From: Persephonella sp.
GTDB taxonomy: Bacteria; Aquificota; Aquificia; Aquificales; Hydrogenothermaceae
Direction of reading: 5' to 3'
Assembly (NCBI GenBank): GCA_027028005.1
Contig: JALVKE010000158.1
Location: 1 to 33,388 of the forward strand
DNA: 33,388 bases
Part shown: piece after piece, positions 22,372 through 25,306 of the stretch
Position numbering within the stretch: the stretch's first letter is position 1
Layout: every line of letters starts with the position of its first letter
Program-made: the position numbers and the translations under genes
Notes under the pieces: model-generated
Told to the model about the DNA's origin: nothing
What the model saw: only the letters and a program-made list of their open reading frames with translations
Databases searched by the model: none

Positions 22372-23271
22372 TTAATCTTTAATGAGATTAAGGCCTAATT
22401 TTTCTGCATATTCTACAGCTTTTGCGTATTCATCTATATAAATTTTTCTGTTTAACTCTGGATATTCATAGGCTTTATATGCAGGAAAGTACTGAGACAT
22501 AATGTTAACATGTATATTAGGTGAAACAGATTTTAGAAAATCTAAAACCTCTTTTGTTGTTGATATATCATTAGGTAAAACTAAATGTCTAACTAAAAGT
22601 CCTCTGTAGGCAATCCCATTTTCATCTACCTTAAGGTCTCCAACCTGACGATGCATCTCTTTAATAGCCTTTTTAGCCACTTCAGGATAGTTTCTAACCT
22701 TAGAGTACTTCCTTCCATACTCTTCTTTTAAGTATTTCAGATCTGCCAAGTATATATCAACAATTCCATCTAACAGTTTTAAACTCTCTAAATTATCGTA
22801 GGAAGATGTGTTATAAACAATAGGAATTTTAAGCCCTTTTTTAGCAGCTAAATATGTTGCTTCTATAAGTTGAGGAACAATATGTGAAGGAGTAACCCAG
22901 TTTATATTGTGACAACCCATTTTCTGAAGCTTTAGCATTATATCTGCTACATCTTCTGGAGTTAACATGTATCCTTCTCCTAGCTGACTTATATCGTAAT
23001 TTTGACAGTATACGCACCCAAGATTACAGTAAGAGAAAAATATCGTTCCACTACCGTTGTATCCTCTTATTGGAAATTCCTCTCCTCTATGTGGAAAATA
23101 AGAGGCAACGTAAACATTCCTTCCTGTTTTACAGAAACCTAATTCATTTTTTGTTCTATCAACAGAGCAGTTTCTAGGACAAACTATGCAGTCTTTTAAA
23201 AGTTTTTTACTTTCTTCAACTCTTTTCTCCAACTCTCCGCTTTTAAGAAGATTTACATAGCTTCCTACCAT
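22372..23271 (-). CDS. Radical SAM protein, PflA-like (COG1313 type)
   Basis: 299 residues. An N-terminal cysteine cluster (C28, C31, C35, C47: CIVCPRNCSVDR...GFC) precedes the radical SAM CxxxCxxC motif C82, C86, C89 (YCNLGCVYCQN), which binds a 4Fe-4S cluster and S-adenosylmethionine. Later are GLLVRHLVLPN and HVNIMSQYFPAY, typical of the uncharacterised 'pyruvate formate-lyase activating enzyme-like' group. No target glycyl-radical enzyme is encoded nearby, so a pflA function should not be assumed. Ribosome site AAGGG is modest. It may be transcribed alone. Confidence 0.88.
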   Translation of the reverse strand: MVGSYVNLLKSGELEKRVEESKKLLKDCIVCPRNCSVDRTKNELGFCKTGRNVYVASYFPHRGEEFPIRGYNGSGTIFFSYCNLGCVYCQNYDISQLGEGYMLTPEDVADIMLKLQKMGCHNINWVTPSHIVPQLIEATYLAAKKGLKIPIVYNTSSYDNLESLKLLDGIVDIYLADLKYLKEEYGRKYSKVRNYPEVAKKAIKEMHRQVGDLKVDENGIAYRGLLVRHLVLPNDISTTKEVLDFLKSVSPNIHVNIMSQYFPAYKAYEYPELNRKIYIDEYAKAVEYAEKLGLNLIKD

Positions 23272-23640
23272 TAGCTAACCCTTTTCTAAAATTTTTTTAG
23301 AAATTTATTGAAAAGAAAAAAATCTTCAACTTTCTGTTTTAAATTTTAAAAAAATACTAAAATTTGACGCTTTTAACTTTTTAAATCTATACTTTATGCA
23401 TAGAAATTTGACTGTTTCACAGAGATATAGGGAGTTACACAGATAAATTACTCTCTAACACATGTGCAGTAGTCTTTCTCTCCACAGATTTTAGACAGCT
23501 TCAGGTAGGTCTAGATCTATGTTTTTACACTATTTAACTCTCTTTCTAAACTAGATTTTGAAAGTTTTGAAGAACTCTAGAAAAACCTCTAGTCATCTAT
23601 AATAAGTGCAATTTAACATATTTTCTCAAAAAGTAGCTTT
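23272..23640. other. Non-coding A+T-rich stretch
   Basis: About 370 bases between the radical SAM gene and the structured remnant. It must include the radical SAM promoter, but I see no convincing one. No ORF, tRNA or repeat array is evident. It has short palindromic bits (for example around TAGATCTA near 23510) of unknown meaning. Confidence 0.5.
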
Positions 23641-23669
23641 TGTTTATATTGTTAAGACAAGTTAACTAC

Positions 23670-23945
23670 GTGAACTGCTCTAAAAAGCTTCCTGCTTCAC
23701 AGCTAGATGTCTCATGAACTGTACTACTCACTTACAGTCGCCAATTTGCTTACGCAAAAGTCTGCCAGCATAGCCAGCTCCACAATCCCAAAGAGATTAA
23801 GCCTGCAACTTTTGTTGCAGAGCAAAGACTGTAGCTGCTTCCGTTAGTCGCTATATCTCTTCGGGATAGCCTTAGGTAGTTCCTACCCTACAGTTTTTGG
23901 TGGAAGTTTTCCTTCTCCCTTCCTACTTTCAGGAAAATCTTTAAT
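23670..23945 (-). mobile_element. TnpB 3'-end/omegaRNA-like transposon remnant
   Basis: Richer in G+C than its surroundings and packed with hairpins: CTGCAAC-TTTT-GTTGCAG (23803-23820), TTTGC-TTAC-GCAAA (23745-23758), GGTAG-TTC-CTACC (23875-23887), GCTAT/ATAGC (23850-23870) and an enclosing TACAGTC/GACTGTA pair (23733-23739 and 23827-23833). On the minus strand, 23680-23712 reads RHLAVKQEAF then stop, like the C-terminal tail of IS200/IS605-family TnpB, followed by AGCAGTTCAC ending at 23670, like the right end of such elements. Upstream frames carry stops, so no TnpB is made. If intact as RNA, its guide would begin at 23669. It lies just downstream of murA. Alternative: an unrelated structured RNA. 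Confidence 0.5.
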
Positions 23946-24007
23946 TTGGTTATTGTTTCTATCTTTAATGAAAAACTATCTGCCAAAATGACAGGTAAAT
24001 TTTTTCT

Positions 24008-25306
24008 TTACAATGTTCTTTCAATCATATCTCTTCTTAGTTTTGCACCAAGTTTTTTTAGTTTTTCATCTATATTTTCATATCCTCTATCAAGATGATA
24101 TATATCGTAAATTCTTGTAGTTCCTTCAGCTATAAGACCTGCTATAACCATAGCTGCACTTGCTCTTAGATCTGTTGCCTTAACTTCAGCCCCAGTTAAT
24201 TTTTTAACACCTCTTATATAAGCTGTTTTGTCCTTAACTTTTATATCTGCTCCTAATCTTTCTAGTTCAGGAACATGCATAAATCTATTCTCAAATATAT
24301 TTTCAGTGATAGAAGAAACTCCATCTACAACAGATAAAAGAGTCATAAACTGAGCCTGTAAATCTGTTGGGAAGTATGGATATTCCTTTGTTTCAATATC
24401 TACAGGTTTTAATTTCTTTTTTCTTTTAATAGCTATCTCATCTTTCCCAATAGGAATAACATATACACCTATCTCTTCAAGCCTTTTATTGACAAACTCT
24501 AGATACTCTAAAGGATAGTTTTTAATAGTTATATTTCCATCAAAAAGAGCAGACAGTACGGCAAATGTTCCTGCTTCTATTCTATCTGGTATTATCCTGT
24601 GTTTTGTTCCATGGAGTTTTTTAACCCCTTTTATGTATATAGTTGATGTTCCTTCTCCTTCTATTTTAGCTCCCATTTTCTTTAGCATCTTAGCTAAGTC
24701 GACCACTTCAGGTTCTCTTGCTGCGTTCGTAATAACTGTTTCTCCTTCAGCAAGAACTGCAGCCATCATAATATTTTCTGTCCCTGTTACTGTTATTTTT
24801 TCAAAGTTTATATGAGCTCCTTTTAAGCCATTGGGAGCTTTTGCTATGATGTATCCATGTTCTACTTTTATATCAGCACCCATCTTTTCAAGGGCTGAAA
24901 GATGAAGGTCAACAGGTCTTGTTCCTATGGAACATCCCCCAGGAAGAGCAACCTTTGCATGTTTAAATCTAGAGAGCATAGGACCTAAAACAAGAATAGA
25001 AGCTCTCATTTTTGATACAAGCTCATACGGAGCAACAAGAGAGTTAATTGTTTTTTGCTTAAAGGAAAATGTTTTTTCAGATAGTTTTTCTATAGAAAAA
25101 CCTACAAAAGATAAAAGATCTTTCATTGTCTTAACATCAAGAAGATTAGGCATATTTTCTAATATAATCTCTTCATCTGTTAAAAGTGTAGCAGCCATAT
25201 TTGGAAGAGCTGCATTTTTAGCGCCGGAAATTTCCACAGTACCTCTTAAAGGAATTCCACCCTCAATCTCTAGATATTCAACTATCTCTAAATTCTGTTT
25301 TATCAT
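24008..25306 (-). CDS. murA: UDP-N-acetylglucosamine 1-carboxyvinyltransferase
   Basis: First committed step of peptidoglycan synthesis: transfer of enolpyruvate from PEP to UDP-GlcNAc. 432 residues. Catalytic loop LPGGCSIGTRPVDLH with Cys125 (fosfomycin-binding Cys of the family, so not the Asp variant); SGAKNAALP near 28-36 binds substrate. The N-terminus is about ten residues longer than E. coli MurA. Start overlaps the prmC stop as ATGA. Last gene of the folP-to-murA run. Confidence 0.97.
   Translation of the reverse strand: MIKQNLEIVEYLEIEGGIPLRGTVEISGAKNAALPNMAATLLTDEEIILENMPNLLDVKTMKDLLSFVGFSIEKLSEKTFSFKQKTINSLVAPYELVSKMRASILVLGPMLSRFKHAKVALPGGCSIGTRPVDLHLSALEKMGADIKVEHGYIIAKAPNGLKGAHINFEKITVTGTENIMMAAVLAEGETVITNAAREPEVVDLAKMLKKMGAKIEGEGTSTIYIKGVKKLHGTKHRIIPDRIEAGTFAVLSALFDGNITIKNYPLEYLEFVNKRLEEIGVYVIPIGKDEIAIKRKKKLKPVDIETKEYPYFPTDLQAQFMTLLSVVDGVSSITENIFENRFMHVPELERLGADIKVKDKTAYIRGVKKLTGAEVKATDLRASAAMVIAGLIAEGTTRIYDIYHLDRGYENIDEKLKKLGAKLRRDMIERTL

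Follow-up and report, generated by a model that had tools for sequence, protein, structure and literature searches.

The gap between murA and a radical SAM gene in a Persephonella genome very probably harbors a decayed, non-autonomous, terminal-only derivative of the IS200/IS605 family, which lost most of tnpB in an ancestor, spread in its short form and then decayed in the copy described here. IS200/IS605 elements are common jumping genes, and their omegaRNA is the guide RNA of the TnpB nuclease. The remnant itself is ordinary; the interesting part is a set of small two-hairpin cassettes nested in it. In the following, the window is the entire analyzed stretch of 33,388 nucleotides, and the window copy is the element within it.

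Position and origin of the element

The gap extends from 23272 to 24007 between the radical SAM gene (22372-23271, minus strand, PF04055) and murA (24008-25306, minus strand, PF00275). The host genome, a fragmented MAG, is contaminated to 8.4%, and some of its contigs are possibly foreign. It was assigned to the Hydrogenothermaceae (Aquificota) because its TnpB has close relatives, at 84-90% identity, in Persephonella, Hydrogenothermus and further MAGs of this family. Judged by homology to tnpB and to the right end of the family, the minus strand from 23670 to approx. 23985 represents the omegaRNA region and the right end of an element of the IS200/IS605 family that lacks its protein. The earlier note had proposed such a 3′ part at 23670-23945. 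The feature is real but had been drawn too short, as homology to other copies reaches 23975 and probably continues to about 23985 (upper boundary within 23975-24007).

A full copy, which the earlier note had suggested looking for, is present on contig C269 of the same genome. This contig carries an intact tnpB whose 3′ end shares 85% identity with the window stretch across 119 nt, and the counterpart of the stretch comprises the 3′ end and downstream region of the gene. The encoded TnpB of 402 residues has OrfB_IS605, Cas12f1-like TNB and HTH_OrfB domains, and its three acidic RuvC positions are legible by eye (GIDVG, VVES, HDRD). Altogether, the stretch has six more matches in its own genome (C76, C78, C254, C316, C233 and C269). 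Lack of any similar TnpB 3′ end in other genomes had been named as an argument against this origin; related ends were found in 15 of the 61 genomes searched, the own genome counted.

The tail and terminus that had been pointed out earlier are both shared with relatives. On the minus strand, 23712-23680 reads R-H-L-A-V-K-Q-E-A-F followed by a stop. In relatives the TnpB reading frame spans the entire omegaRNA region and terminates with tails such as RHPAVKQEAPQFIEE, and their full-length TnpBs carry the same C-terminal tail, e.g. ...STRHPAVKQEAPQFIEE in L056. As this frame runs through the omegaRNA region, the tail in the window is a true TnpB C-terminus. The right end AGCAGTTCAC (23679-23670, minus strand) is the terminus common to nearly all copies, which finish in (A/G)GTTCAC or a one-base variant, and the DNA beyond it differs in every copy. 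This is the arrangement expected of a right end beyond which the guide is read from flanking DNA (PMC10278001). By this analogy, a 20-nt guide would take up the host flank GTAGTTAACTTGTCTTAACA (23650-23669, minus strand). Positional homology thus places the window copy where a functional omegaRNA is expected, at the 3′ end of tnpB, ending at the right end and followed by a flank guide. At the other side, most of the other copies have TTTA in front of their left end, as judged by eye; in the window copy this end is eroded.

Since the stretch is structured, intergenic and downstream of murA, a different known RNA unrelated to TnpB was also considered, a case that the earlier note had raised against its own reading. 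However, an Rfam search brought no family to its gathering threshold and nothing credible at relaxed thresholds. Its homologs are scattered IS copies, and this genome-wide homology already contradicts such an RNA, to which we attach a negligible probability.

Upstream of the omegaRNA region, a leader segment (23892-23975, minus strand) is common to short copies, as detected by BLAST to L002, L004, L005, L006, L010 and L012, and adjoins none of the full-length tnpB genes found in this analysis. The extension of this shared leader to about 23985 had been overlooked. Next to it, the hairpin CTGTCATTTTGGCAG followed by a T run (23980-23994, minus strand) is either an eroded left-end hairpin or the murA terminator; it resembles a terminator and lies where sister copies have their left end. 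In the remainder of the gap, window positions 23400-23530 contain the imperfect direct repeats GTTTCACAGAGATAT / GTTACACAGATAAAT.

Two sister short copies, located on C76 and C78, have the internal deletion, the leader junction and the inserts M1, M2 and M3 described below in common with the window copy, M3 being partly eroded in C78. By this shared form, the window copy (23670-23985) is very probably a terminal-only, PATE-like derivative. It has lost the protein genes and retained the right terminus. Copies of the same form (C76, C78 and other short copies) occupy unrelated sites, as do C76, C78 and the window copy among themselves, and therefore the short form once moved. In the ancestor, an internal deletion would have removed nearly all of tnpB and spared the leader at the left end, the end of tnpB that encodes the omegaRNA, and the right end. 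The short form would then have spread to at least three sites in its own genome, presumably by a Y1 transposase (TnpA) acting in trans. Y1 TnpA occurs in 14 of the 41 family genomes; none was detected in the fragmented MAG itself. At G012:C54:10841-11206, a tnpA with one in-frame TAA stop is located directly upstream of a same-family tnpB, a pair that by its sequence is of the IS605 type with a broken transposase.

Conserved hairpins and the state of the window copy

The earlier description of the stretch as structured was correct with respect to folding. The minus strand folds at −76.5 kcal/mol (z = −2.5; a single shuffle out of 200 does as well), and the plus strand is weaker relative to its shuffles (z = −1.7). 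The number of inverted repeats, on which that description had also relied, is not above chance: two perfect stems (at least 5 bp, loops of 3-8) compare with 1.2 in dinucleotide shuffles, and 353 of 1000 shuffles equal the count. For this reason it was dropped as evidence, and the case for a real feature is based on homology instead.

A consensus fold of 28 copies contains 28 pairs, 15 of which show compensatory changes. The core omegaRNA hairpin GGGTAGGAACTACC (23875-23888, minus strand) belongs to this fold and exhibits such changes (UA 16, CG 9). The hairpin just 5′ of the conserved TCTACGAG block is highly variable in sequence and keeps its pairing, with 96.7% of cells paired as compared to 67.6% in shuffles and at most 54.4% in slid controls. 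Pairing that persists despite strong sequence variation indicates that the family has a real conserved structure, be it in RNA or in single-stranded DNA.

According to the alignment of copies, deletions have removed two hairpins from the window copy, the covarying one of the omegaRNA and that of the right end. The former, which precedes the right end, persists as collapsed remains at 23711-23724 (minus strand), where 12 nt are missing and the alignment has a gap at the tested helix. The subterminal hairpin of the right end, present in other copies, is absent between AAGCT and GAGCAG within the stretch encoding the tail (23680-23712, minus strand). The missing right-end hairpin marks the window copy as a decayed derivative rather than an intact element. 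In the proposed course of events, the murA-adjacent copy would have lost the guide-adjacent omegaRNA hairpin and the right-end hairpin after the short form had spread.

These losses bear on two further explanations. The TnpA of the IS200/IS605 family needs the right-end hairpin. That the short element is still mobile in trans, as the past movement seen in its sister copies might suggest, is very improbable given the lack of this hairpin in the window copy and of a detectable TnpA in its own genome. A domesticated or still working stand-alone omegaRNA, as entertained in the earlier note, would have the C269 TnpB at its disposal in trans. This protein is intact and of the same family, its omegaRNA is 85% identical to the window stretch over the 119 nt mentioned above, and the stretch still folds well. 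Several observations argue against this explanation, which we consider improbable. The conserved scaffold hairpins of a functional omegaRNA are not intact, as the guide-adjacent and right-end hairpins are deleted. The stems of the inserts M1 and M3 contain mismatches in the window copy. A promoter-like site was not found on the minus strand upstream of the remnant. Finally, the position is not conserved, the element being absent from the single further member of the genus in which the murA 3′ flank was readable at this place. The comparison with an empty site, also suggested earlier, did not go further than this, as gene order around murA differs and no clean empty site is demonstrable from its neighbors. 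With two hairpins deleted and no promoter-like site, the remnant does not look domesticated. A TldR-like domesticated TnpB system was ruled out because no TnpB-derived gene adjoins the remnant.

We thus return to the decayed terminal-only derivative. From the loss of both hairpins, the window copy is most likely inactive, neither moving nor guiding TnpB, and any transcript of it would stem from murA read-through. Better candidates for a working protein-less omegaRNA, again judged from their sequences, are the short copies L010 (1432-1725), L006, L005 and L004 (own genome and G002), in which left and right ends surround an omegaRNA-like segment. Of these, L010 combines an intact right-end hairpin with a good promoter-like site, TTGATA-17-TATATT, at the left end.

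Nested two-hairpin cassettes

When the copies are aligned, the omegaRNA region shows five sites at which a block is cleanly present or absent, M0, M1, M2, M3 and M5, with sizes of approx. 36, 36, 42, 36 and 36 nt as read from the alignment. Three of these two-hairpin inserts would have been carried within the omegaRNA region of the short form and are found in the window as exact blocks on the minus strand: M1 (23836-23871, 36 nt), M2 (23783-23824, 42 nt, reversed relative to M1 and M3) and M3 (23725-23760, 36 nt). A cassette similar to M3 exists in a tnpB 5′ region and intergenically elsewhere. The three precise inserts, which had escaped notice before as later additions, make up much of the visible hairpin content of the remnant.

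In the TnpB proteins of relatives, the inserts appear as extra blocks of 12-14 residues, e.g. NLRFEHAERHST, ALHQKVQAQSQRDC, LLHKQIGDHKGA and SQKLASLQSEQA; the TnpB frame of the C269 copy stops just past M1. In family A, a tnpB insert of 33 nt, corresponding to about eleven residues within DKSLIWATEREQ, is present in the own genome and one relative and missing from other homologs. A second TnpB family has inserts of 33 and 34 nt, the latter (C217) shifting the frame, and a third has inserts at up to three points, with empty alleles that are less closely matched. Exact filled and empty sites are available for M0, M1, M2, M3 and M5 of the omegaRNA, for tnpB families A and B and for the F site. 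Their comparison places the insert generally after an A and ending in GCA, one-base ambiguities allowed.

Cassettes of 33-36 nt, mostly in frame, reside in tnpB of three TnpB families, as at L034 1026-1058 (G000:C269:14246-14278) and in L272, L241, L245, L213, L168, L209 and L199. In the full element, a cassette-like two-hairpin unit also lies within the left end, 5′ of tnpB (L034, approx. 501-535; G000:C269:13721-13755), with similar left-end matches in G002:C42 and G030. Two-hairpin cassettes of 33-42 nt, mostly in frame, thus recur in tnpB, omegaRNAs and left ends of IS605 elements in the heat-loving Hydrogenothermaceae.

All cassette statistics were collected after the pattern had been noticed. 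The exact variable-gap pattern GCGACCN{2,6}GGGAGCA occurs 23 times, in 9 of the 41 Hydrogenothermaceae genomes, and its reversed control not at all; about 20 of the 23 fall in TnpB elements by inspection. Apart from this pattern, only hits with 0-1 mismatches were used, and the 2-mismatch hits of a first search were discarded because many arose by chance in GC-richer genomes. A covariance model was built from the gapless 33-nt type only, as hairpin sequences differ among cassette types and a joint MAFFT alignment fails; it misses the diverged window cassettes. Among its 16 best matches, 6 of which were in the training set, 14 overlap TnpB-like coding sequence, one is at 40 nt from such a sequence and one has none nearby. 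At E ≤ 0.001, matches occurred in 12 of 136 Aquificota genomes, all of them Hydrogenothermaceae, absence elsewhere being provisional under these strict filters. Some weaker matches fall on left ends or on Y1 TnpA genes, the latter at G002:C311:8963-8995, G018:C52:8530-8562 and G002:C30:6899-6931. In the cassette stems, 5 of 10 pairs show double changes and none of 500 shuffles reaches the covariation score, on an alignment that was itself fitted to the structure.

The same cassette type is found at different places in different TnpB families, which suggests that it may be mobile. Our judgment is evenly balanced on the wider proposal that Hydrogenothermaceae carry a mobile family of 33-42-nt two-hairpin cassettes colonizing IS200/IS605 elements almost exclusively. 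Its members would have a first hairpin with a loop of 3-4 nt and a second hairpin often containing tandem G-A mismatches (GC-GA-stem-loop-stem-GA-GC), and would insert after an A and end in GCA. They would add hairpins to omegaRNAs and 11-14 residues, mostly in frame, to TnpB, so that protein and guide RNA would be enlarged together by a parasite of the transposon. Movement could be due to a Y1-type enzyme recognizing single-strand hairpins or to recombination copying between IS copies; either fits.

If the cassettes move, they would constitute mobile units of very small size that strongly prefer TnpB elements. Length and topology of omegaRNAs vary widely (PMC10278001), and mobile cassettes would offer a simple source of this variation. 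The natural pairs of filled and empty sites make it possible to test directly where omegaRNA and TnpB tolerate inserts.

Relation to known elements

Terminal-only IS605 derivatives are already known (PMC3119063, PMC7290912). The ends-only, PATE-like element of Halanaerobium hydrogeniformans (PMC7290912), approx. 271 nt long and without transposase, consists of the same parts as the window copy, namely sequence of the left end, the terminal portion of tnpB and a right end, which is complete in the Halanaerobium element. It differs in host and sequence, and the window copy lacks the right-end hairpin and contains three cassettes. The PATEs of Haloquadratum (PMC3119063) are likewise transposase-free, multicopy products of a core deletion in IS605-type transposons, but their host is archaeal and they keep the near-terminal palindromes, the right one of which is deleted in the window copy.

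For the cassettes, the closest precedents in the open-access literature are SMR-A, the Halanaerobium hairpin inserts and the Rickettsia palindromic elements; an earlier description elsewhere is possible. SMR-A of Haloquadratum (PMC3119063) are small repeats that, like the cassettes, prefer IS605-type elements and PATEs and insert without target duplication. In contrast, they measure approx. 110 bp and have terminal inverted repeats, whereas the cassettes comprise two adjacent hairpins in 33-42 nt and also enter tnpB coding sequence. In Halanaerobium IS605 (PMC7290912), hairpin-bearing inserts of 64 nt in tnpB and of 28 nt in the right end of one IS605 family resemble the cassettes by description; their sizes differ, and a wider family is not described there. 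The palindromic elements of Rickettsia (reviewed in PMC10969869) are also small and located in frame inside coding genes. However, they are approx. 150 bp long and reside in unrelated metabolic genes, whereas the cassettes have about one quarter of that length and are concentrated in IS605 elements.
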